Of a DNA stretch of 64,000 nt, positions 8,745 to 21,477 are shown in pieces. The position numbers were made by a program, and so were the translations under genes. The stretch's first letter is position 1; the number at the start of each line of letters is the position of its first letter. The DNA comes from Streptomyces canus (GTDB lineage: Bacteria; Actinomycetota; Actinomycetes; Streptomycetales; Streptomycetaceae). The notes beneath the pieces were generated by a model. That model saw only the letters and a program-made list of their open reading frames with translations. It made no database searches and was not told where the DNA came from. The DNA is taken from positions 2,356,001 to 2,420,000 of the forward strand of contig NZ_CP107989.1 of the NCBI RefSeq assembly GCF_041435015.1, given 5' to 3'.

Positions 8745-9920
8745 GTGAGCAAGCGACTGACCTGCGATGTCGTGGTCGTCGGAGCCGGGATGGTGGGTGC
8801 GGCCTGTGCCCTGTACGCCGCCCGCGCGGGCCTCGACGTGATCGTCGTCGACCGCGGTCCGGTGGCCGGCGGTACGACCGGCGCCGGTGAGGGCAATCTC
8901 CTGGTCTCCGACAAGGAGCCGGGACCCGAGCTCGAACTCGCCCTCCTGTCCGGCCGGTTGTGGACCGAGTTGGCGGAGGAGGTCGGCGACGCCATCGAGT
9001 ACGAACTCAAGGGCGGCGTGGTCGTGGCCTCCACGTCCGACGGCCTCGAAGCCCTGGAGAGGTTCGCGACCGGGCAACGGGCCGCAGGCGTCGAGGCGGT
9101 GCGGGTGGACGCAGGCCGACTCAGGGAGCTGGAGCCCCACTTGGCGCCCGGACTCACCGGCGCTGTGCTGTATCCCCAGGACGCGCAGGTCATGCCGACG
9201 CTGGCCGCCGCTCATCTCGTACGGTCCTCGGGTGCCCGGCTGTTCACCGGCGCGGCGGTGACCGAGGTGCTGCGCGGCGCCGACGGTGCCGTGCGCGGGG
9301 TGCGGACCGGCCGGGGCGAGATCCACACCCCGCATGTCGTCAACGCCGCCGGGACGTGGGGCGGTGAGCTGGCCGCGCTGGCGGGAGTGAGCCTCCCCGT
9401 GCTCCCCCGACGCGGCTTCGTCCTGGTCACCGAGCCGCTGCCCCGCCTGGTCCGTCACAAGGTGTACGCCGCCGACTACGTGGCCGACGTGGCCAGCGAC
9501 TCGGCGGCCCTGCAGACCTCACCTGTCGTGGAGGGGACGGCGGCCGGGCCCGTCCTGATCGGTGCGACCCGTGAACGGGTGGGCTTCGACAGGTCGTTGT
9601 CGCTGCCCGCGCTGCGCGCGCTGGCGGAGGGCGCGACCCGGCTGTTCCCGTTCCTGGAGCGGGTGCGCGCGATGCGGACGTACCTCGGCTTCCGGCCGTA
9701 CATGCCCGATCACCTGCCCGCGATCGGCCCCGATCCGCGGGTGTCCGGGCTGTTCCACGCCTGCGGGCACGAGGGCGCCGGCATCGGACTGTCCACCGGG
9801 ACGGGGCAGTTGATCGCCCAGGTGCTGGCCGGGCGCGCCCCCGATCTCGATCTCGCACCTTTCCGTCCCGACCGTTTCCCCGCCTCCGCCTCCGCCTCCG
9901 CCTCCGAGGAGGCCTCGTGA
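8745..9920 (+). CDS. D-hydroxyproline dehydrogenase, FAD-dependent DAO-family subunit
   Basis: The 391-aa flavoprotein has an N-terminal dinucleotide fold VVVGAGMVGAACALYAARAG, TTGAGEGNL, and the C-terminal FAD-contact region ACGHEGAGIGLSTGTG of the D-amino-acid oxidase superfamily. Together with the two following genes it makes the three-part dehydrogenase type (catalytic DAO subunit, [2Fe-2S] subunit, FAD/NAD subunit) known for cis-4-hydroxy-D-proline. It starts at GTG and overlaps the next gene by 4 bp (GTGA). The last residues, PASASASASEEAS, are encoded by a hexanucleotide repeat. Substrate assignment rests on the operon. Confidence 0.85.
   Translation: MSKRLTCDVVVVGAGMVGAACALYAARAGLDVIVVDRGPVAGGTTGAGEGNLLVSDKEPGPELELALLSGRLWTELAEEVGDAIEYELKGGVVVASTSDGLEALERFATGQRAAGVEAVRVDAGRLRELEPHLAPGLTGAVLYPQDAQVMPTLAAAHLVRSSGARLFTGAAVTEVLRGADGAVRGVRTGRGEIHTPHVVNAAGTWGGELAALAGVSLPVLPRRGFVLVTEPLPRLVRHKVYAADYVADVASDSAALQTSPVVEGTAAGPVLIGATRERVGFDRSLSLPALRALAEGATRLFPFLERVRAMRTYLGFRPYMPDHLPAIGPDPRVSGLFHACGHEGAGIGLSTGTGQLIAQVLAGRAPDLDLAPFRPDRFPASASASASEEAS
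9882..9913 (+). repeat. Four GCCTCC repeats able to pair with the next gene's Shine-Dalgarno
   Basis: GCCTCC occurs four times in tandem at 9882-9905, inside the end of the DAO-subunit gene. The last copy forms a perfect inverted repeat GCCTCC-GA-GGAGGC (9900-9913) with the ribosome-binding site of the following gene (GTG at 9917). Any of the four copies could pair with that site. Confidence 0.7.
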
Positions 9921-10216
9921 ACCCGCTGGAGCTGGTGGGCGCCGAGCCCGGTCCCCCCTTCACCGTCACCCTCGACGGGCGGGAGATGGAGGCCCTGCCC
10001 GGCCAGACCGTCGCCGCCGCGCTGTGGACTGCGGGCATCACCTCCTGGCGCACCACCCGCGGCGAGGGCCGCCCGCGCGGGATCTTCTGCGGCATCGGCG
10101 TCTGCTTCGACTGCCTGGTGACCGTCAACGACCGCCCGAACCAACGGGCTTGTCTGATGCCCTTGCGGCCGGGCGACGCGATCCGCACGCAGGAGGGAAC
10201 GGGCCACGATGACTGA
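9917..10216 (+). CDS. D-hydroxyproline dehydrogenase, [2Fe-2S] ferredoxin-like subunit
   Basis: The 99-aa protein carries the cysteine set FCGIGVCFDC...ACLMPL, i.e. CxxxxCxxC plus a distal Cys, of the small [2Fe-2S] subunit found with HcnA- and LhpB-type amine dehydrogenases. It relays electrons between the flavin subunits. It starts at GTG, overlapping the upstream gene by 4 bp, and its end overlaps the next gene by 8 bp, so all three are translationally coupled. Confidence 0.88.
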   Translation: MNPLELVGAEPGPPFTVTLDGREMEALPGQTVAAALWTAGITSWRTTRGEGRPRGIFCGIGVCFDCLVTVNDRPNQRACLMPLRPGDAIRTQEGTGHDD

Positions 10217-11606
10217 GCCCAGCCTGGCGGTGATCGGTGCGGGTCCGGCCGGACTCGCGGCCGCCCTCGCGGCGGCCGCCCGGGGCATCCGTGTCACCCT
10301 GATCGACTCGGCCGCGGAGGCGGGCGGGCAGTTCTACCGGCAGCCCGCACCCGGGCTCGGGGCCCGTCGGCCGCAGGCACTGCATCACCAGTGGCGGACC
10401 TGGGAGAGACTGCGGGACGGCCTGCGCGCCCATGTGCAGGCGGGCACCGTGCGGCACATGACGGATCATCACGTCTGGTTCGTCGAGCGCCGGGACACCG
10501 CCGGTTTCGCCGTGCACGCCCTCGTGGGCCCCGAGCAGGAGCAGCCGGCCGAGGTACGCGCGGCGGCGGTCCTCCTCGCCACCGGCGGCTACGAGAAGGT
10601 GCTGCCCTTCCCCGGCTGGACCCTGCCCGGTGTCGTCACGGCGGGCGGGGCGCAGGCCATGCTCAAGGGCGGGCTCGTGCTGCCGGGCCGTACCGCCGTC
10701 GTCGCCGGGACCGGGCCGCTGCTGCTGCCCGTCGCCACCGGCCTCGCCGCGGCGGGCGCGACGGTCGCCGCGCTGGTGGACTCGGCCGACCCGAAGTCGT
10801 TCGTACGGCGGTCCCGGACGCTGGCGGGCCGACCGGGCAAGGTGGCCGAAGGCGCCCAGTATGCAGGGCAGTTGCTCCGGCACCGGGTACGCACTCTCCT
10901 CCATCACACCGTCGTGGCGGCGCACGGCGCCGAGCGGCTGGAGGCGGTGACGATCGCGGCCCTCGACCGGGACGGGCGGGTGCGTCAGGACACCCGCCGA
11001 CGCCTCGGCTGCGACACCCTCGCCGTGAGTCACGGCATGCTGCCGCACACCGACCTCGCCGACGCGCTGGGCTGCCGGGTCGACGGCACGGACGTGTACG
11101 TCGACGACGAGCAGCGCACCGACGTGCCGGGGGTGTGGGCGGCGGGCGAGACCACCGGCATCGGCGGCTCCGCCCTCTCACTCGCCGAGGGACACATCGC
11201 CGGGCGGTCGGTCGCGGCGCGGCTGGCCGGGCGGGCACCGGATCCCGGTGAGTGGGCGGCCGCCGCGCGCACCCGGGCCGGGCTGCGGGCCTTCTTCGCC
11301 GCCGTCGACTCCGTCTACGTGCCGCCCGCGCACTGGGCCGAGCAGGTCACCGACGGGACGGTGGTGTGCCGCTGTGAGGAGGTGTCGGCCGGTGCGGTGC
11401 GGGAGGCGGTGCGCGAGCTGGGGGCCGGTGACCTGAGGACCGTGAAGCTGCTGACGCGGGCCGGGATGGGCTGGTGCCAGGGCCGGGTGTGCGGGCCCGG
11501 AGTGGCCGGTGTCGCCGGGTGCGCGGAGACCGCGGGCCGCAGGCCGTTCGCACGGCCGGTGCCGCTGGGCGTGTTGGCCCGGGCCGGAGAGACCGAGGAA
11601 CAGTGA
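10209..11606 (+). CDS. D-hydroxyproline dehydrogenase, FAD/NAD(P)-binding subunit with BFD-like [2Fe-2S] domain
   Basis: This 465-aa protein opens with VIGAGPAGLAAALAAAARG (FAD site), has a second nucleotide fold around residues 155-190 (LPGRTAVVAGTGPLLLPVATG) and VWAAGETTGIGGSALSLAEG. It ends with a cysteine cluster (CRCEEVSAG ... GMGWCQGRVCG) of the BFD-like [2Fe-2S] type. This is the layout of the HcnB-like subunit in three-component D-hydroxyproline dehydrogenases. The ATG at 10209 overlaps the ferredoxin subunit gene. The order DAO, ferredoxin, FAD/NAD subunit is consistent with one complex made in fixed ratio. Confidence 0.88.
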   Translation: MTEPSLAVIGAGPAGLAAALAAAARGIRVTLIDSAAEAGGQFYRQPAPGLGARRPQALHHQWRTWERLRDGLRAHVQAGTVRHMTDHHVWFVERRDTAGFAVHALVGPEQEQPAEVRAAAVLLATGGYEKVLPFPGWTLPGVVTAGGAQAMLKGGLVLPGRTAVVAGTGPLLLPVATGLAAAGATVAALVDSADPKSFVRRSRTLAGRPGKVAEGAQYAGQLLRHRVRTLLHHTVVAAHGAERLEAVTIAALDRDGRVRQDTRRRLGCDTLAVSHGMLPHTDLADALGCRVDGTDVYVDDEQRTDVPGVWAAGETTGIGGSALSLAEGHIAGRSVAARLAGRAPDPGEWAAAARTRAGLRAFFAAVDSVYVPPAHWAEQVTDGTVVCRCEEVSAGAVREAVRELGAGDLRTVKLLTRAGMGWCQGRVCGPGVAGVAGCAETAGRRPFARPVPLGVLARAGETEEQ

Positions 11607-11607
11607 T

Positions 11608-11615
11608 ATGTCACA
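11608..11615 (+). promoter_or_regulatory. ATGTCACA element before the DapA-family gene
   Basis: ATGTCACA is the exact reverse complement of the TGTGACAT found at 8728-8735. It lies in the 30-bp gap between the dehydrogenase operon and the next gene, 22 bp from that gene's ATG. It is a candidate operator; binding is inferred. Confidence 0.4.
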
Positions 11616-11636
11616 CCCTATGGAGAGGTGATCCAC

Positions 11637-12530
11637 ATGACCGCCAGCCTTCGTCCGTGGCGCGGAGTGCTCGTCGCCACCGCCCTCCCGTTGAACGACG
11701 ACCTGTCGGTGAACTACGAGAAGTACGCCGAACACTGCGCCTGGCTGGTCGAGAACGGCTGCGACGGCGTCGTACCGAACGGCTCGCTCGGCGAGTACCA
11801 GGTGCTCACCCCCGAGGAGCGGGCCAAGGTCGTCGAGACGGCCGTGGCCGCCATCGGCGGTGAGCGGGTGATGCCGGGCGTCGCCGCGTACGGCTCGGCG
11901 GAGTCCCGCCGCTGGGCCGAGCAGGCGCGTGACGCGGGCTGTGCGTCCGTGATGCTGCTGCCGCCCAACGCCTACCGCGCCGACGAACGGTCGGTCCTCG
12001 CGCACTACGCCGAGGTCGCGAAGGCGGGTCTGCCGATCGTGGCGTACAACAACCCCATCGACACCAAGGTCGACCTGGTGCCGGAGCTGTTGGCCGAACT
12101 GCACGCCGAGGGATACATCCGCGCGGTCAAGGAGTTCTCCGGTGATGTCCGCCGCGCCTACCAGCTGGCCGAACTCGCCCCGGAGCTGGACCTGTTGATC
12201 GGCGCCGACGACGTCCTGCTGGAACTCGCCCTCGCCGGGGCCAAGGGGTGGGTGGCCGGCTACCCGAACGCGCTGCCCAGGGCCTCCGTCGAGTTGTACC
12301 GGGCAGCCGTGGCCGGCGACCTCGGCACCGCGAGGAAGCTGTACGAGCAGCTGCACCCGCTGCTGCGCTGGGACTCCAAGGTCGAGTTCGTACAGGCGAT
12401 CAAGTTGTCGATGGACATCGCCGGCCGGCACGGCGGGCCCGTGCGTCCGCCGCGCGTCCCCCTGCTGCCCGGGCAGGAGGCCGTCGTGCGGGCCGCCACG
12501 GAGAAGGCCGTCGCCGCGGGACTCGTCTAA
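11637..12530 (+). CDS. DapA-family 1-pyrroline-4-hydroxy-2-carboxylate deaminase
   Basis: The 297-aa protein belongs to the dihydrodipicolinate synthase family of Schiff-base TIM barrels. VPNGSLGEY matches the substrate-carboxylate loop, YNNP carries the catalytic Tyr, and AVKEFSGD carries the Schiff-base Lys. In hydroxyproline clusters this family member deaminates pyrroline-4-hydroxy-2-carboxylate to 2-oxoglutarate semialdehyde. GGAGAGG stands 8 nt before the ATG at 11637. The semialdehyde dehydrogenase that would finish the pathway is not in the window. Confidence 0.87.
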   Translation: MTASLRPWRGVLVATALPLNDDLSVNYEKYAEHCAWLVENGCDGVVPNGSLGEYQVLTPEERAKVVETAVAAIGGERVMPGVAAYGSAESRRWAEQARDAGCASVMLLPPNAYRADERSVLAHYAEVAKAGLPIVAYNNPIDTKVDLVPELLAELHAEGYIRAVKEFSGDVRRAYQLAELAPELDLLIGADDVLLELALAGAKGWVAGYPNALPRASVELYRAAVAGDLGTARKLYEQLHPLLRWDSKVEFVQAIKLSMDIAGRHGGPVRPPRVPLLPGQEAVVRAATEKAVAAGLV

Positions 12531-12550
12531 CTCGTCAAGGAGAGCGGACC

Positions 12551-13552
12551 ATGCGCAGCACACTCGTCCTGCACGCCGTCGACTCGCACACCGAGGGCAT
12601 GCCCACCCGCGTGATCACCGGCGGCATCGGCACGATCCCCGGCGCGACCATGAACGAGCGCCGGCTGTACTTCCGTGAGCACCGCGACGACATCAAGCAG
12701 CTCCTGATGAACGAGCCGCGCGGGCACTCGGCGATGAGCGGCGCGATCCTCCAGCCGCCGACCCGCCCCGACTGCGACTGGGGTGTCGTGTACATCGAGG
12801 TCTCGGGCTATCTGCCGATGTGCGGACACGGCACGATCGGGGTGGCGACCGTGCTGGTGGAGACCGGCATGGTCGAGGTCGTCGAGCCGGTCACCACGAT
12901 CCGGCTCGACACCCCGGCGGGCCTGGTCGTCGCCGAGGTCGCGGTGGAGGACGGCAGGGCGAAGCACGTCACGCTGCGGAACGTGCCGTCCTTCGCCGTC
13001 GCCCTCGACCGCGAGATCGCACTGGCCGACGGGCGGACGGTGACATATGACCTGGCGTACGGCGGCAACTTCTACGCCATCCTGCCGTTGGACCGGTTCG
13101 GGCTGCCCTTCGACCGGACCCGCAAGGACGACATCCTGAAGGCGGGGCTGTCCCTCATGGAGGCGATCAACACCGAGGAGGAGCCCGTCCACCCCGAGGA
13201 TCCCTCCATCCGCGGCTGTCACCACGTCCACCTGGTCGCGCCCGGCGCGACCGCCCGCCACTCCCGGCACGCGATGGCCATCCACCCCGGCTGGTTCGAC
13301 CGCTCCCCCTGCGGCACCGGCACCAGCGCGCGCATGGCCCAGCTCCATGCGCGCGGCGAACTCCCGTTGCACACCGAGTTCGTGAACGAGTCCTTCATCG
13401 GGACGCGGTTCACGGGCCGGCTCCTCGGCACCACCGAGGTGGCGGGCCGCCCCGCCGTCCTGCCCAGTTTCACCGGGCGGGCGTGGATCACCGGCACGGC
13501 GCAGTACCTGCTCGACCCGACCGATCCGTTCCCGGCGGGATTCGTCCTGTGA
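12551..13552 (+). CDS. 4-hydroxyproline 2-epimerase (proline racemase family)
   Basis: This 333-aa enzyme interconverts trans-4-hydroxy-L-proline and cis-4-hydroxy-D-proline. Both catalytic cysteines are present: Cys91 in MCGHGTIG and Cys254 in SPCGTGTSAR. Dehydratase members of the family replace the first with Thr, so this one is an epimerase or racemase. Twenty nt separate it from the deaminase gene, with AAGGAGAGCGG as the ribosome-binding site. The neighbouring D-hydroxyproline dehydrogenase makes hydroxyproline the likely substrate rather than proline. Confidence 0.9.
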   Translation: MRSTLVLHAVDSHTEGMPTRVITGGIGTIPGATMNERRLYFREHRDDIKQLLMNEPRGHSAMSGAILQPPTRPDCDWGVVYIEVSGYLPMCGHGTIGVATVLVETGMVEVVEPVTTIRLDTPAGLVVAEVAVEDGRAKHVTLRNVPSFAVALDREIALADGRTVTYDLAYGGNFYAILPLDRFGLPFDRTRKDDILKAGLSLMEAINTEEEPVHPEDPSIRGCHHVHLVAPGATARHSRHAMAIHPGWFDRSPCGTGTSARMAQLHARGELPLHTEFVNESFIGTRFTGRLLGTTEVAGRPAVLPSFTGRAWITGTAQYLLDPTDPFPAGFVL

Positions 13553-13586
13553 GCCCCGAGGGCGTCGAGGATAATGCCGGGTGCCG

Positions 13587-13594
13587 CGTGACAT
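13587..13594 (+). promoter_or_regulatory. CGTGACAT element before the GntR gene
   Basis: This is a third copy of the GTGACAT core, 24 bp before the regulator's ATG, following the two at 8728 and 11608 (the latter inverted). If it is the GntR operator, this copy would give autoregulation. Confidence 0.4.
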
Positions 13595-13617
13595 TGCACC
13601 ACTAGGAGATGCCCCTC

Positions 13618-14295
13618 ATGGCCGCCCAGCGATCCAGCACCCCCGCTCTGCCCGTTCTCGGCGGCAAGAAGAGCAGCTACCGGGAGCGGGTCGCCGACGC
13701 CCTGCGGGCCGCGCTGATCGCGGGCGAACTGCTGCCGGGTCAGGTGTACTCGGCGCCCGCGCTCGCCGCCCGCTTCGGTGTGTCGGCCACCCCCGTGCGT
13801 GAGGCCATGCTCGACCTCGCCAAGGAGGGCCTGGTCGACACCGTGCCCAACAAGGGTTTCCGGGTCACCGCGGTCTCCGAGAAGCAGCTCGACGAGTACA
13901 CCCACATCCGCTCGCTCATCGAGATCCCCACCGTCGTGGAGCTGGCCTCGACCGCCGACCCGGTCTCCCTGGAGGCGCTGCGTCCCGCCGCCCGGGAGAT
14001 CGTCCAGGCGGCGGTGTCCGGTGACCTCATCGCGTACGTCGAGGCCGACACCCGCTTCCACCTCGGCCTGCTCGCCCTCGCGGGCAACGCCCATCTGGTC
14101 GAGGTGGTCGGCGACCTGCGCAAGCGGTCACGGCTCTACGGCCTCACCCCGCTGGTGAAGTCCGGCCGCCTGCTGGCCTCCGCCGAGGAGCACCTGGAAC
14201 TCCTCGACGCGCTGATCGCCCGCGACGAGAGGGCGGTCCATGCGGTGATGACCCGGCACATCGGGCACGTCCGGGGGCTGTGGGCGGCGAAGTAG
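13618..14295 (+). CDS. GntR-family (FCD subfamily) regulator of the hydroxyproline cluster
   Basis: The 225-aa protein has an N-terminal winged helix (YRERVADALRAALIAGELLPG, then FGVSATPVREAMLDLAKEGLV) and an all-helical FCD ligand-binding domain with the metal-binding Asp/His residues (EADTRFHLGLLALAGN, TRHIGHVRG). It probably senses hydroxyproline or a breakdown product and represses the cluster. The start at 13618 has AGGAG 9 nt upstream; the ATG at 13609 sits directly on that site and is unlikely. Confidence 0.88.
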   Translation: MAAQRSSTPALPVLGGKKSSYRERVADALRAALIAGELLPGQVYSAPALAARFGVSATPVREAMLDLAKEGLVDTVPNKGFRVTAVSEKQLDEYTHIRSLIEIPTVVELASTADPVSLEALRPAAREIVQAAVSGDLIAYVEADTRFHLGLLALAGNAHLVEVVGDLRKRSRLYGLTPLVKSGRLLASAEEHLELLDALIARDERAVHAVMTRHIGHVRGLWAAK

Positions 14296-14325: not shown

Positions 14326-15804
14326 TCAGGCCTTCACGCACTCCCGCCCGTTGAGGGAGAAGTCGTACGCCGGGGCGTTCCTGCCCTGCCAGGTGGCGAG
14401 GAAGCCGAGGGAGAGCGAACCGTCCGCGGGGACGGACTTGTTGTAGTCGGCGGCGCTCGCGGTGACCTTCGCGCCGCTCTGGGTGAAGCTCCCGTCCCAC
14501 ATCTGCGTCACCTTCTGGCCGTCCTTGAAGGACCAGGTGACCCGCCAGTCGCTGAGCGCCTCGGTGGTGGTGACGGTGACGGCGCCCTGGAAGCCGTCGG
14601 GCCACTGGTTGACGAGGGTGTACTCGACCTGGCAGGACGGCGTGACGCTCTCGCCGGGCTCCGGTTCCTCGGCACCGGCGGAGGAGGTCCCCTGGGGTTC
14701 CGGGTCGGAGTTCTTCGCGCCCGTGGACTCGGACGGGTTCCCGCTGGGCGTCTGCGACGGGTGCGCCGAGCCGGGCGCCCGGGACGTGGCGGCGGGGACG
14801 GACGAGCTGGGGTTGGCCACCGGCTCACCGTCGGCGGAGGTACCGGTGCCGGGCTTGGCGGCACTGTTCCCCGTGTCGTCGCCCGGCATCATCGAGACGG
14901 CGAGGGCGAGCAGGGAGACGAGGACGGCCGCGACGAGCAGTCCGTTGCGCACGACCTTCGCCTTGTGCGCCCCGGGGTTCGGGGGCCCGCTCTCCAGTGC
15001 CTCCGGGCGTCGGGCGCCAAGGCGTACCTCGGCGGCCCGGCGGCGGCGCTCCAGATAGGCGAGCCCGCCCCAGCCGATCACCCCGCCCGCGAGGGCCGCG
15101 GGCAGCCCGCCGCCCTGCAGTCGAAGACAGGCGGCGGCCTCCGCGCACTGCCGGCATCTCGCGAGGTGGCGGGAGAGGTCGTCCGGGGTCTCGCCGGAGG
15201 TGGATCGGGTGACCGCGTCCAGCAGCCGGGCGTAGCTGCGGCACTGCGCGTCCATCGGCATGTCGAGATGGTTGCGGTGGCTGCGGTCCCGGAACAGACC
15301 GCGCACCTGGGCGAGTTCGTCGCCCACGGTGGCCGGGTCGAGGCCGAGCCGGCGGGCCACCGCGGACAGCGGCAGCGCCTCCACCTCGGCCAGCCACAGC
15401 AGTTCGGCGTCCGCTGCCTGCAGATCGCGCAGTCCGCGCAGCGCGATCGGCCGCTGGAGCGGCGGGCCGGTGTAGCGGGCGGCCTTGTCGGAATTGAGCC
15501 ACAGCCGCAGATCGGGGTCGAGCCGGTGGCCCAGCCCCTGTGTCTCCCACTCCGCCGCCGTCGTGCGAACGGCGGTCAGCAGCAGGGGTATTCGGGGCAG
15601 CCGGGCCGGACGGCGGCCGACGCCCCGGGCGGCGGCCTCCGCCTCACGGACCTCGCGCATGCCGAGGGAGAACGCCTCCGTGGCCAGCTCGGTGGCGGCG
15701 GTGGAGCCGGCCGTGCACAGATCGGCGTACGACAGCACGGCATCCCAGCACTCGGAGAACAGCGCGGCCTCGGCGGCGTCCTGGGGGGTCGGCAGGTCGG
15801 GCAT
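14326..15804 (-). CDS. Transmembrane sigma/anti-sigma-like protein with extracellular cellulose-binding CBM2
   Basis: This 492-aa protein joins parts rarely seen together. Residues 1-180 resemble a sigma-factor scaffold, including an HTH-like stretch (LPLSAVARRLGLDPATVGDELAQVRGLF, 144-171). Residues 209-225 contain the zinc-finger anti-sigma pattern HLARCRQC (His213, Cys217, Cys220). A membrane helix follows (287-306), then an 85-residue Ser/Pro/Thr linker and a C-terminal CBM2 domain bounded by Cys391 and Cys489, with conserved tryptophans (NQWPDGF, WRVTW, WDG). Topology would put CBM2 outside the cell. I infer a polysaccharide-sensing regulator, analogous in design to clostridial RsgI proteins. 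A structural or adhesive role is the main alternative. Confidence 0.75.
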   Translation of the reverse strand: MPDLPTPQDAAEAALFSECWDAVLSYADLCTAGSTAATELATEAFSLGMREVREAEAAARGVGRRPARLPRIPLLLTAVRTTAAEWETQGLGHRLDPDLRLWLNSDKAARYTGPPLQRPIALRGLRDLQAADAELLWLAEVEALPLSAVARRLGLDPATVGDELAQVRGLFRDRSHRNHLDMPMDAQCRSYARLLDAVTRSTSGETPDDLSRHLARCRQCAEAAACLRLQGGGLPAALAGGVIGWGGLAYLERRRRAAEVRLGARRPEALESGPPNPGAHKAKVVRNGLLVAAVLVSLLALAVSMMPGDDTGNSAAKPGTGTSADGEPVANPSSSVPAATSRAPGSAHPSQTPSGNPSESTGAKNSDPEPQGTSSAGAEEPEPGESVTPSCQVEYTLVNQWPDGFQGAVTVTTTEALSDWRVTWSFKDGQKVTQMWDGSFTQSGAKVTASAADYNKSVPADGSLSLGFLATWQGRNAPAYDFSLNGRECVKA

Positions 15805-16156
15805 GGGTCTCCTGCATCCAAAGCGAGGTCAACTCGCCATACTGGCAAAGGAGTTGGGGGGAACCTCGCGGCAGGACAGGAGCCTTTCACGTCTCCCACA
15901 CAACTGACAAGCAGGCTATTCAAATCGGTTACCGAGGGTTCGCGCCAGCGGTCGGAGCACATGACCGGGAGCGCTGTTACGAGAGTTATACGGAAAGAAC
16001 GCCGGGAAATCTCGACACCGGGTGCAACTCATCGCGAAATGTGCGGAGCAGCGGCCACTACGGTCACCTTGTCGATAAATCATTCGGCACATCAGAGCGG
16101 GCCGCGGATCCCCAAGGTCTCCGCGGCCCGCGCCCGTCCGTTTCGGCGGTGAGGAG
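15805..16156. other. Intergenic region with radical SAM gene terminator
   Basis: The 352 bp lie upstream of the CBM2 sensor-like gene and downstream of the radical SAM gene, both leftward. GCGAG-GTCAA-CTCGC (15823-15837) is a small inverted repeat 19 bp upstream of the start of the CBM2 gene. The middle part (15940-16090) is comparatively AT-rich and probably holds its promoter. A strong hairpin near 16097-16131 is listed separately. Confidence 0.5.
16097..16131 (-). terminator. GC-rich hairpin terminator after the radical SAM gene
   Basis: A perfect 12-bp stem GCGGGCCGCGGA / TCCGCGGCCCGC with an 11-nt loop starts 26 nt after the radical SAM stop codon. No U-run follows, as is common for Streptomyces terminators. 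Confidence 0.75.
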
Positions 16157-17476
16157 TTACACCTCGACCGGCTCCTGCGCCGGAAGGCTGTCCATGAAGG
16201 AGCTCACGGAGAAGACGGCACGACCGGGTCCGGGCGGGCCGTAGCCGGGGGGCGAGGACAGTCCGAAGTCGTCCATCGTCCGGCGATAGGCCTGGAGCAG
16301 CCGGATGTGGTACTCCAGCGGCGCGCCCTGCGGGTTGGCCTTGCCGAGCGGGGTCGTGGGCTCGGGGCACCACGTGGTGAAGCGGGGCGTGATCCCGTGC
16401 GACATGAAGAAGCGCAGGCCCTCCGTCGTGGACGCGATGGCCTCGTCGACCGTCTTGAAGCCGAACGGCTCGGCCATCTCCACGCCCGCCACGAAATTGG
16501 GGATCACATTGCGCGCGCCGAAGACCTCCGCCGAGTCCAGGATCCGCTTGTGCCACTCGTCCCGGCCGACGTACCGCTCCTTGCCCGGGCAGTACATCTT
16601 GAAGAGATACTCGTCCCACACCTCGTAGTTGGGGTGGTAGATCTGCACGCCGTAGTCCTTGAAGCGCTGCACGTCGTCCTTCGGCAGCGCCTGCGCGACG
16701 ACCTTGCCGATCCAGCGGCCCGGGAAGTGCTCCTCGATGGCCTTCGCGTACATGCCGTAGAAGTCGGCCTCGTCACGGCCCTGGAGCTTCGAGGTGATCG
16801 CGCCGCCGGTGAGCGTGTAGGCGGTGGACACCTTGGCGGTGTCGTACCGGTTGATGATCTCGAGCGCCTCCAGGACCTCGTCCACGTCCTTGACGCCCGT
16901 GTACGGCCGCCCCGCCGCCTTGTGCTGGCGCCAGTTGTGGTTGATGTCGCAGTACTGGCACTCCTCCTTGGCGCCGAAGTACTGGCACACCCGGAAGACG
17001 GTCAGATAGATCAGGTAGCCCCACTGGATGGTCGGGGCGACCTCCATCACGGACTTCCCGTTGGAGAGCTTGTGCCGGTAGTACTCCGGCATCGGCGGCA
17101 CACCCACGTCGGCGATCCGCTTGCCGTCGAGGTAGAGCCCGAGCATGCCGGAGTCGTCGGCCGCCACGCGGTAGGGCGAGGCGGGGTTCACCCGCACCGA
17201 CACCACGGTCCGCCTGAGGTCGTACGGCCCGCCGGTGAGGATGATCTCCTCCGGCGGGCGCCGCAGCGCGGCCTCGCCGAGCTCCGGCAGGGTGCCGTGG
17301 TCGAAGGAGAAGATGAAGTACGACTTCGGCTTCATCTCCCCCGACTCGTTGTCGCTGAGGGCGGACGGGTCGAAGGCCACGCCACCTCGCAGCAGGTCCT
17401 CTTTGAAGACGGCTTCCCGCGGCACCTGCGGAAACCGCTCCATCAGATCCTCGACCAGCGCGGTACGGCTGCCCAT
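16157..17476 (-). CDS. Radical SAM protein with CX8CX2C cluster motif
   Basis: This is a 439-aa protein. Cys164, Cys173 and Cys176 (C-QYFGAKEE-C-QY-C) are the likely [4Fe-4S] ligands, spaced CX8CX2C instead of the canonical CX3CX2C. The remainder resembles a radical SAM barrel: TAYTLTGGAITSKLQG near residue 218 fits a SAM-binding glycine segment, and conserved stretches (YHPNYEVWDEYLFKMYCPGKE) continue to the C-terminus. The substrate is not evident. It lies 62 bp after a flavin split-barrel gene in the same direction and ends at a strong terminator. Confidence 0.75.
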   Translation of the reverse strand: MGSRTALVEDLMERFPQVPREAVFKEDLLRGGVAFDPSALSDNESGEMKPKSYFIFSFDHGTLPELGEAALRRPPEEIILTGGPYDLRRTVVSVRVNPASPYRVAADDSGMLGLYLDGKRIADVGVPPMPEYYRHKLSNGKSVMEVAPTIQWGYLIYLTVFRVCQYFGAKEECQYCDINHNWRQHKAAGRPYTGVKDVDEVLEALEIINRYDTAKVSTAYTLTGGAITSKLQGRDEADFYGMYAKAIEEHFPGRWIGKVVAQALPKDDVQRFKDYGVQIYHPNYEVWDEYLFKMYCPGKERYVGRDEWHKRILDSAEVFGARNVIPNFVAGVEMAEPFGFKTVDEAIASTTEGLRFFMSHGITPRFTTWCPEPTTPLGKANPQGAPLEYHIRLLQAYRRTMDDFGLSSPPGYGPPGPGRAVFSVSSFMDSLPAQEPVEV

Positions 17477-19446: not shown

Positions 19447-20022
19447 GTGAAGCTTTCGGAGTGGGCCCGTCAGCAGGGCGTGAGCTACCAGACCGCCTGG
19501 CGGTGGGTGAAGGACGGGAAGATGCCCGTCCCCGTTCGCCAGGCGCCGTCCGGGACGTGGTTGGTCGACGAGGTCGCCGTCCAGCCGTCCGGGCGTGTGG
19601 TGGCGTACTGCCGCGTGTCGTCCGTTGACCAGAAAGCCGATCTTGAGCGGCAGGCCGCCCGGGTCGTGTCCGGCGCGAACGGGCTGGGTCTGGCCGTCGC
19701 TGAGGTCGTCACCGAGGTGGGATCCGGGTTGAACGGGCGGCGCCGCAAGCTGCACCGGCTGCTGTCCGACCCGCAGACCGCGGTGATCGTGGTCGAGCAC
19801 CGCGACCGGCTGGCCCGCTTCGGCGTCGAGCACCTGGAGGCCGCGCTGTCGGCGTCCGGGCGGCGCCTGGTCGTCCTCGACCCCACCGAGACCGCCGATG
19901 ACCTGGTACGCGACATCACCGAGGTGCTCACCTCCCTGTGCGCCCGCCGGTACGGGCGGCGGGCAGCGAAGAACCGGGCCGCCCGCGCGGTGGCCGTAGC
20001 GACCGGCGAGGCCGCCGAGTGA
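19447..20022 (+). CDS. tnpA: IS607-type serine recombinase TnpA
   Basis: The 191-aa protein has an N-terminal MerR-like helix-turn-helix (KLSEWARQQGVSYQTAWRWV) that binds the element ends, followed by the resolvase domain with the catalytic Ser in VVAYCRVSS, the QKADLERQ segment and EHRDRLARFG. It starts at GTG and looks complete. Its stop overlaps the tnpB start (GTGA, 20019-20022), as is usual in this family. The transposase could therefore still be active even though tnpB is broken. Confidence 0.93.
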   Translation: MKLSEWARQQGVSYQTAWRWVKDGKMPVPVRQAPSGTWLVDEVAVQPSGRVVAYCRVSSVDQKADLERQAARVVSGANGLGLAVAEVVTEVGSGLNGRRRKLHRLLSDPQTAVIVVEHRDRLARFGVEHLEAALSASGRRLVVLDPTETADDLVRDITEVLTSLCARRYGRRAAKNRAARAVAVATGEAAE

Positions 20023-21477
20023 AGAAGTTCCAGCCGCAGCCCGGGTTCGTGGTGCAGGCGTACCGCTTCGCACTGGACCCGAACGCCACCCAGGAGCATG
20101 CCCTGCGCTCGCACTGCGGCGCGGCGCGTGCCGCCTACAACTGGGCCGTCGGCTGGGTGAGCGCCTCCTGGTGGCAGCGCCGCGCGGAGGAGTCCTACGG
20201 CATCGGCGGGGCCGGGCTGACCAAGTGGCGGCCGTGGTCGCTGCCCGCGCTGCGGAAGGCGTTCAACGAGGCCAAGCACACCGATCCGAGGTTCGCCGCC
20301 TGGTGGGAGCAGAACTCGAAGGAGGCGTACTCCACCGGCCTGGCGAACGCGTCGGCCGCGTTCGACAACTACGCGAAGTCCAAGAGGGGCAAGCGGCGCG
20401 GCAAGCGGATGGGTGCGCCGCAGTTGAAGTCGAAGCGGAACCGCGCGCCTTGCCTGCCGGTTCACCACCGGCGTGATCCGCGTGGACACCGACGGCCGTC
20501 ACGTCACTCTGCCCCGGCTGGGCACGATCCGCACCCACGAGCCCACCGTGAAGCTCCTCGCCCGCGTCCAGGCCGGGACGGCCCGGATCCTGTCCGCGAC
20601 CGTGCGGCACGAGCGCGGACGCTGGTTCGTCTCGTTCCAGGCCGAGGTCAAGCGGGACCTCGAACCCGTGGCGCGGCCGGACGTGGCGGTCGGGATCGAC
20701 CTGGGGGTGAAGTCCCTCGCGGTCATGGCCGACAGCACCGGCGAGATCCGCACCATCGCCAATCCCGGGCACCACGACCGGGCACGCAAGCACCTGCGCC
20801 GCGCCTCCCGCGTCGTCTCCCGACGGCAGGGCCCCGACCGGCGGACCGGGCAGAAGCCGTCGAAGCGGTGGGAGAAGGCCAACGCCGCCCGCAACAAGGT
20901 GCATCACCGGGTGGCCAACCTTCGCGCGGACGCCCTGCACAAGCTCACCACCGCCGTGGCGGCCGAGTACGGCACGGTCGTGGTCGAAGACCTCAACGTC
21001 GCCGGGATGCTCCGCAACCGGCGTCTCGCGCGAAGGATCGCCGACGCCGGGTTCGGGGAGATCCGCCGCCAGCTCACCTACAAGACCCGCCAGCGCCACG
21101 CCACCCGCACCATCGTGGCGGACCGCTGGTACCCCTCCTCGAAGACCTGTTCCGGGTGCGGCGCGGTGAAAGCCAAACTGCCGCTGCACGTGAGGACCTA
21201 CCGGTGCGACGCCTGCGGTCTGGTCATCGACCGGGACGACAACGCCGCACTCAACCTCGCCGCGCTCGCGGCAGCCGCAACAACTGGTACCGGAGTGGCC
21301 GGAGACCAGGACACCGCCCCTGCGGTGTCGAAGCCTCGTGGAGCCGACCAGAAGACCCGCACCACCCGCCCCCGCCGCAAGGCGGAGGCGGGGCGGGCAG
21401 GTGGCGCAACCCTGCCGCACCAGCGGCAGACGGAAGCGAGAGACCGTACTCAAGCCGAAGCCCTCACGTTCTGGTGA
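20019..21477 (+). pseudogene. tnpB: tnpB RNA-guided nuclease gene with a frameshift
   Basis: The first 145 codons (KKFQPQPGFVVQAYRF to KSKRNRAP) are in one frame and the rest (from about 20456, CRFTTGVIRVDTDGRH) in another. One extra base within TGCC at 20451-20454 would explain the break. The second part still has the RuvC-type acidic residues (GIDLGVK, VVVEDLNV, DRDDNAALN) and the zinc-finger cysteines CSGCG and CDACG. The intact protein would be about 485 aa. As it stands no full-length TnpB is made unless frameshifting occurs; a sequencing error is possible. Confidence 0.85.

Follow-up and report, generated by a model that had tools for sequence, protein, structure and literature searches.

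A CBM2-bearing membrane protein of Streptomyces canus related to ECF52 fused sigma factors, with a sigma domain that has probably lost its function

The window analysed here, a 64,000-nucleotide stretch of the Streptomyces canus contig NZ_CP107989.1 (positions 2,356,001 to 2,420,000), contains a gene (14326..15804, minus strand) whose 492-residue product, the window protein, raises the question of what a sigma factor-like cytoplasmic part is doing in a membrane protein with a carbohydrate-binding module of family CBM2 outside the cell. The original prediction saw in it a fused sigma/anti-sigma sensor. The single-protein layout is borne out by the predicted fold, the zinc ligands and the CBM2 module; the idea of a working pair is not, the sequence features that bind polymerase and promoter having been lost. 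On balance we favour a membrane receptor for insoluble beta-glucan (cellulose, possibly chitin), derived from a fused sigma/anti-sigma protein like those of extracytoplasmic function (ECF) group ECF52, whose sigma activity would have been lost. The computed basis of this reading comprises homology, predicted fold, loss of sigma features, the zinc ligands, the membrane helix, the CBM2 module, a single loss in the family tree and purifying selection.

The gene is an open reading frame (ORF) with an ATG start and 848 homologues at E <= 0.001; among the 120 matches listed, the named sources are all Streptomyces, and the closest named relatives are S. canus proteins with 95% identity, that of S. 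canus DSM 40017 being 99% identical across residues 1-256. Database names for these relatives are 'cellulose-binding domain-containing protein' or hypothetical. Length is well conserved, with 78 of 79 sequences (the window protein included) at 488-509 residues and one at 412; two further loci, L245 and L274, were dropped because they extend past the ends of their contigs. The gene is also present in S. lincolnensis. All parts of the architecture first described were found: a sigma2/sigma4-like region, a zinc site, one membrane helix, a linker and CBM2.

The cytoplasmic part begins with a sigma2-like helical domain (residues 8-103; 15496..15783, minus strand, as are all features of the gene given below) and a sigma4-like domain (residues 105-182; 15259..15492). 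BLAST aligned residues 8-249 with the ECF52-like paralogue of the same genome (L025) at 28% identity over 264 columns (E 2e-16). That paralogue has Sigma70_r2, zf-HC2 and NPCBM above cut-off and Sigma70_r4_2 below it, and because of this alignment, together with the 848 homologues, the sigma-like reading is more than chance. An AlphaFold2 model of residues 1-310 (pLDDT 80.8, pTM 0.77) has the sigma2-sigma4 fold of ECF sigma factors and aligns with ECF sigma2 and sigma4; VIA-align listed 50 structures, almost all of them sigma factors or PhyR domains that resemble sigmas, with exceptions such as EL222 and a TFIID-complex chain. Within residues 1-230 the sigma-like fold was recovered, and a ZAS (zinc-binding anti-sigma) fold taken alone was not confirmed. 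Sequence comparison shows homology between the cytoplasmic part and the sigma2/sigma4-ZAS region of ECF52-type fused proteins of the SCO4117 type.

Whether the sigma domain still works was judged by profile searches. In Pfam, Sigma70_r2 gave no match on the window protein at E<=5, and Sigma70_r4_2 gave a sub-threshold match at residues 127-165 (13.0 bits against a cut-off of 25.7), which accounts for the 'HTH-like stretch' of the original prediction. NCBIfam at E<=5 returned no sigma family for the window protein, the paralogue L022 likewise had no sigma match, and the cut-off of TIGR02937 was passed by all eight intact relatives scanned. Thirty ECF-type sigmas encoded in this genome served to build models of sigma2 and sigma4, and these training sigmas score at least 49.6 and 65.4 respectively, which are upper-end values because the models were built from them. 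The sigma2 scores split the family, 26 members scoring at least 34.2 bits and the rest at most 21.4; we refer to the two groups as intact and degenerate. The window protein scores 9.6 for sigma2 and 12.4 for sigma4, the best scores among shuffled family members (630 shuffles, 618 of which yielded a score) being 7.4 and 5.9. With Pfam at E<=0.01, Sigma70_r2 was found in 30 and Sigma70_r4_2 in 32 of 126 members, from which it follows that a few degenerate members keep a weak sigma match.

The losses fall on the surfaces that a sigma factor uses. The sigma2-like domain lacks its clamp-binding and -10-binding features: the Asp of region 2.2 (position 39) is present in 25/26 intact members and in 1/34 members of the window clade. 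In the sigma4-like domain the recognition helix is acidified, position 163 being acidic in 33/34 window-clade members. Charge was compared among 30 ordinary ECF sigmas, the 26 intact members, the 34 of the window clade and 64 other degenerate sequences. In that order, the mean net charge is -1.90, -1.77, +0.09 and +0.38 for region 2.2, +4.17, +3.77, +0.91 and +1.27 for regions 2.3-2.4, and +4.33, +2.23, -0.09 and +0.20 for the recognition helix; the contrasts at sigma2 positions carry some circularity, because the groups were set by sigma2 score, a definition of which the sigma4 and zinc counts are independent. The window protein thus lacks the acidic charge of region 2.2 and the basic charge of region 2.4 and of the recognition helix that mark a working ECF sigma. 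The acidic patch for clamp binding and the two basic surfaces for DNA binding have been neutralised while the zinc ligands remain, and the protein has probably ceased to be a sigma factor.

These relatives come from 80 regions hand-chosen for spread from the matches listed, together with loci L019-L026 and L057-L105, which were fetched automatically. The genomes were drawn at family level (200 genomes, of which 168 matched at E<=0.001, with up to 11 candidates scored in each; the best match was below 1e-100 in 29 genomes, including that of the window) and at phylum level (396 genomes, of which 41 matched at E<=1e-8, with up to six candidates scored in each; ten weaker loci, L106-L115, were left unused). 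Removal of 12 duplicates, one being the window itself, from the 137 matching loci gave 125 plus the window, and omission of the short members L119 and L120 from the tree and residue counts left 124, of which 98 are degenerate and 26 intact; degenerate members are enriched in this survey because its similarity searches started from the window protein or its degenerate relatives. Rooting the tree on ten ordinary ECF sigmas groups the 98 degenerate members as a single clade (SH-aLRT 91), and the same split is seen in an unrooted tree without the outgroup (SH-aLRT 94), both being quick searches with SH-aLRT support only and several long branches. As these trees have it, the sigma features were lost once, in a single degenerate lineage.

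The single loss bears directly on the possibility that the protein is a working sigma factor of diverged promoter specificity, released by proteolysis. ECF52, of which the first member was characterised only in 2018 (PMC5826349), offers the model: its carbohydrate module is proposed to trigger proteolysis or a change of shape that frees the sigma part (PMC5826349; PMC8999054), and the truncated sigma part of SCO4117 of Streptomyces coelicolor modulates development (PMC5826349). Like SCO4117, the window protein combines in a single chain a sigma part, zinc finger, membrane helix, proline-rich linker and carbohydrate-binding head, and its sigma scores, though low, exceed those of the best shuffles. 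It differs, however, in having CBM2 instead of NPCBM and in a sigma part that sigma models do not recognise and that has lost the charged surfaces for polymerase and DNA binding; it has the zinc ligands, membrane helix, proline-rich extension and a carbohydrate-binding head as in ECF52, without an ECF sigma domain that reaches profile cut-off. Since charge has gone from three surfaces together, position 163 has turned acidic, the split from the intact lineage occurred once and NCBIfam finds no sigma family, we regard a working sigma as quite improbable.

The predicted ZAS-type segment (residues 185-245; 15070..15252) has a zinc site of four ligands, C188, H213, C217 and C220, of which the original prediction named the last three correctly and overlooked the first. 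H213, C217 and C220 never vary across the 124 members, position 188 holds Cys in 123 of them and His in the other, and all four ligands are retained in 98/98 degenerate members. We take their spacing to be the ZAS layout. The zf-HC2 profile of Pfam gave no match on the window protein, and matched at E<=0.01 in only 18 of 126 N-terminal parts. Overlapping the end of this segment and running towards the membrane are conserved juxtamembrane helices (residues 231-261; 15022..15114), in which G244-W245-G246 is invariant across 39 sequences, ECF52-type proteins among them. The ratio of nonsynonymous to synonymous substitution (dN/dS) among the window orthologues is 0.048 for residues 231-256, the lowest of seven parts measured, against 0.22 for the sigma2-like domain, 0.23 for the sigma4-like domain, 0.18 for the ZAS segment, 0.17 for the membrane helix, 0.80 for the linker and 0.57 for CBM2 (pooled Nei-Gojobori estimates over 179 overlapping, non-independent pairs). 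The two helices that lead from the zinc site to the membrane are the most constrained piece measured, and because the cytoplasmic part is under purifying selection, the dead sigma half would appear to perform some role.

The single transmembrane helix (residues 287-306; 14887..14946), placed by hydropathy, agrees with the helix first reported; it is the one strong hydrophobic helix of the protein, the best 19-residue window being 288-306 with a mean hydropathy of 2.56. It is followed by an extracellular linker rich in Ser, Pro, Ala and Gly (residues 309-390), 82 residues long rather than the 85 first given, of which residues 309-388 correspond to 14641..14880. The CBM2 module (residues 391-489; 14338..14634), also part of the original prediction, matches Pfam CBM_2 well above cut-off (E 1.8e-26) and aligns with the CBM2 of exoglucanase/xylanase 6qfs (E 3.1e-21), with W401, W436 and W472 at Trp positions of that structure; we assume for these aligned surface residues the role of their counterparts in the family. 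Such a layout, with CBM2 outside, a long linker and one membrane helix, and with no partner known, would also suit a cell-surface anchor that holds the mycelium to cellulose, its cytoplasmic part being a remnant. That reading is improbable, because an anchor needs neither a conserved cytoplasmic part nor zinc ligands, and here the ligands are kept and the cytoplasmic part is more conserved than CBM2 (dN/dS 0.05-0.23 versus 0.57).

The heads vary across the family. In the genome of the window there are eight members: the window protein with CBM2, L020-L024 with a Ricin-type lectin, the ECF52-like L025 with NPCBM, and L026, an intact sigma with a proline-rich tail that was detected at E 0.002; by the sigma2/sigma4 models six of the eight are degenerate. 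Local models assigned 63 ricin-type and 33 CBM2 heads among 99 degenerate loci and left three unassigned (L165, truncated at the edge of its contig; L119, whose ORF has just 256 residues; and L177), and among 26 intact loci they assigned eight ricin-type heads (weak, E 1e-8 to 3e-4) and five NPCBM, with 13 unassigned. Ricin-type heads, being found in both degenerate and intact loci, thus seem present on both sides of the sigma loss. Pfam found Ricin_B_lectin in 72, CBM_2 in six, NPCBM in five and F5/8 in one of 95 C-terminal parts, a scan that excluded 29 close window orthologues, the cut L165 and the too-short L119. In database listings the proteins of the degenerate lineage are named by their CBM2 or RICIN head, or else hypothetical.

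Several known systems share some of these features. Clostridial RsgI proteins, with which the original prediction drew a comparison, are membrane anti-sigma factors bearing an extracellular polysaccharide-binding module, and their cognate sigmaI is a separate protein. The outline fits, but the window protein has three Pfam matches at E<=5, none of them an RsgI N-terminal anti-sigma domain, and the nearest relatives are actinobacterial ECF52-type fused sigmas; nor did a scan with ECF-based models, which nonetheless flagged a SigB-like sigma elsewhere, flag a sigma gene beside the window gene (5-25 kb of the window) or in its six orthologous loci L203-L208. The ZAS anti-sigma factors ChrR, RslA and RsiW have a four-ligand zinc site with an H-x3-C-x2-C motif, and this motif and the upstream ligand are both present in the window protein, where the ZAS-type part, assigned by its ligands, is instead fused behind a sigma-like domain. 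The fused sigmas of ECF48 and ECF53 (PMC8999054, which names WP_030276194.1 for ECF53) likewise carry a C-terminal zinc anti-sigma part and membrane helices; they differ from the window protein in being described as sigma factors. A similar logic is known from PhyR, where an ECF fold whose promoter- and polymerase-binding regions have degenerated can serve as an anti-sigma decoy (PMC8103513). The sigma-like domain of the window protein shows degeneration in these regions too; PhyR, however, is a response regulator, whereas the window protein, which has no Pfam match to a receiver domain, would be a membrane receptor with a ZAS-type part of its own.

If the protein is indeed such a receptor, binding of CBM2 outside the cell would alter the conformation of the cytoplasmic part or lead to its proteolysis, and the cytoplasmic part would then swap protein partners rather than join RNA polymerase. 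Partner exchange is favoured because the freed part probably cannot act as a sigma factor and because the PhyR decoy sets a precedent. Within this scheme, we tentatively suggest, by analogy with PhyR, that the protein mimics a sigma and so competes for the anti-sigma domain of a functional relative, for example the ECF52-like protein of this genome, and give slightly less weight to an anti-sigma that acts in trans on another sigma. A wider version, which we offer as speculation, would make the six degenerate proteins of this genome an expanded set of carbohydrate receptors descended from one dead sigma, with a lectin or CBM outside and a mimic and ZAS-type part inside, that sense different polysaccharides and, by exchanging partners, tune a working fused sigma such as ECF52, as a membrane counterpart of PhyR.

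A trans-acting anti-sigma can also be conceived independently of the receptor scheme, the ZAS part holding another ECF or SigB-like sigma with the sigma-like part as a structural plug. Retention of the four zinc ligands throughout the degenerate lineage despite the lost sigma surfaces is in keeping with this, as are a SigB-like sigma gene beside the L023-type paralogue in 7/8 loci and an ordinary ECF sigma gene 1.4 kb from L022 on the other strand. The scan described above, however, flagged no sigma gene near the window gene, at L203-L208, or in the 12-14 kb surrounding L020, L021 and L024, which are paralogues from this genome, and the dN/dS of 0.22 in the sigma-like part indicates more constraint than a plug seems to require; we consider it a possible but rather unlikely account.

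At the loci in question, the ricin-headed L023-type paralogue lies downstream of the SigB-like gene on the same strand (L196:4807-7405, L197-L201 and L215, not L202); the sigma gene was identified by Pfam at L196 and by similarity to that gene at the other six. STAS and HATPase (partner-switch) genes stand next to the pair at L196, which is in the genome of the window. The ECF sigma gene near the degenerate ricin-headed L022 (L209:9362-10360, plus strand) is divergent from it, and two small predicted ORFs separate the two.

Sugar-headed fused sigmas are already known. Fused sigma/anti-sigma receptors of this kind have been proposed as carbohydrate sensors (PMC5826349), and some ECF52 and ECF53 proteins carry predicted carbohydrate-binding or glycosyl hydrolase domains, without experimental validation (PMC10766802). 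Our search of open-access papers, a limited library, turned up no description of a lineage whose sigma domain is dead, and PMC7406223 is, in its excerpt, silent on it. A large Streptomyces lineage related to ECF52 has, it would seem, put its sigma half to another use, and may allow polysaccharide sensing by a mode not yet described. If degenerate members do control working sigmas, they would form an unrecognised polysaccharide-sensing layer in Streptomyces and provide a clear case of a transcription factor converted to a signalling part in one event.

The conserved surroundings of the gene are small. A radical-SAM gene (16157-17476, minus strand; NCBIfam variant_rSAM) lies upstream on the same strand and does so in 80/80 orthologous loci, which are the best 80 of 579 and hence the closer ones; the median gap is 273 nucleotides (nt; range 189-2433, counted from the first aligned piece), and the gene was not seen at two more distant loci, L206 and L207. 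Between the two genes, 76-118 nt before the start codon, is a conserved block (15880..15922, minus strand) with GCTTGTCAGTTGTG-N7-CGTGAAA at 15885-15912, nearly invariant in 81 aligned upstream regions including that of the window; its exact 14-mer occurs once in the genome, and the block is likely a promoter or operator.

The original prediction also placed the gene in a region rich in polysaccharide-degrading genes. Seven such genes do lie in the window, at 24.2-62.9 kb, but the nearest starts 8.4 kb from the window gene and the context of the orthologues is different, so that by comparison of loci they are outside its conserved context. They belong to a pectin/hemicellulose set (22945-62929) with a ROK regulator, sugar ABC transporter parts, GH30, GH2, PL4, two GH43, GH28 and an alginate lyase-like gene. 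On the other side, 8745-14295 looks like a hydroxyproline breakdown set (FAD oxidoreductases and DapA-like, proline racemase-like and GntR genes), the GntR and racemase-like genes being present in 5/80 orthologous loci of limited flank. Resolvase-like and TnpB-like genes at 19447-21477 presumably constitute an IS607-type element.
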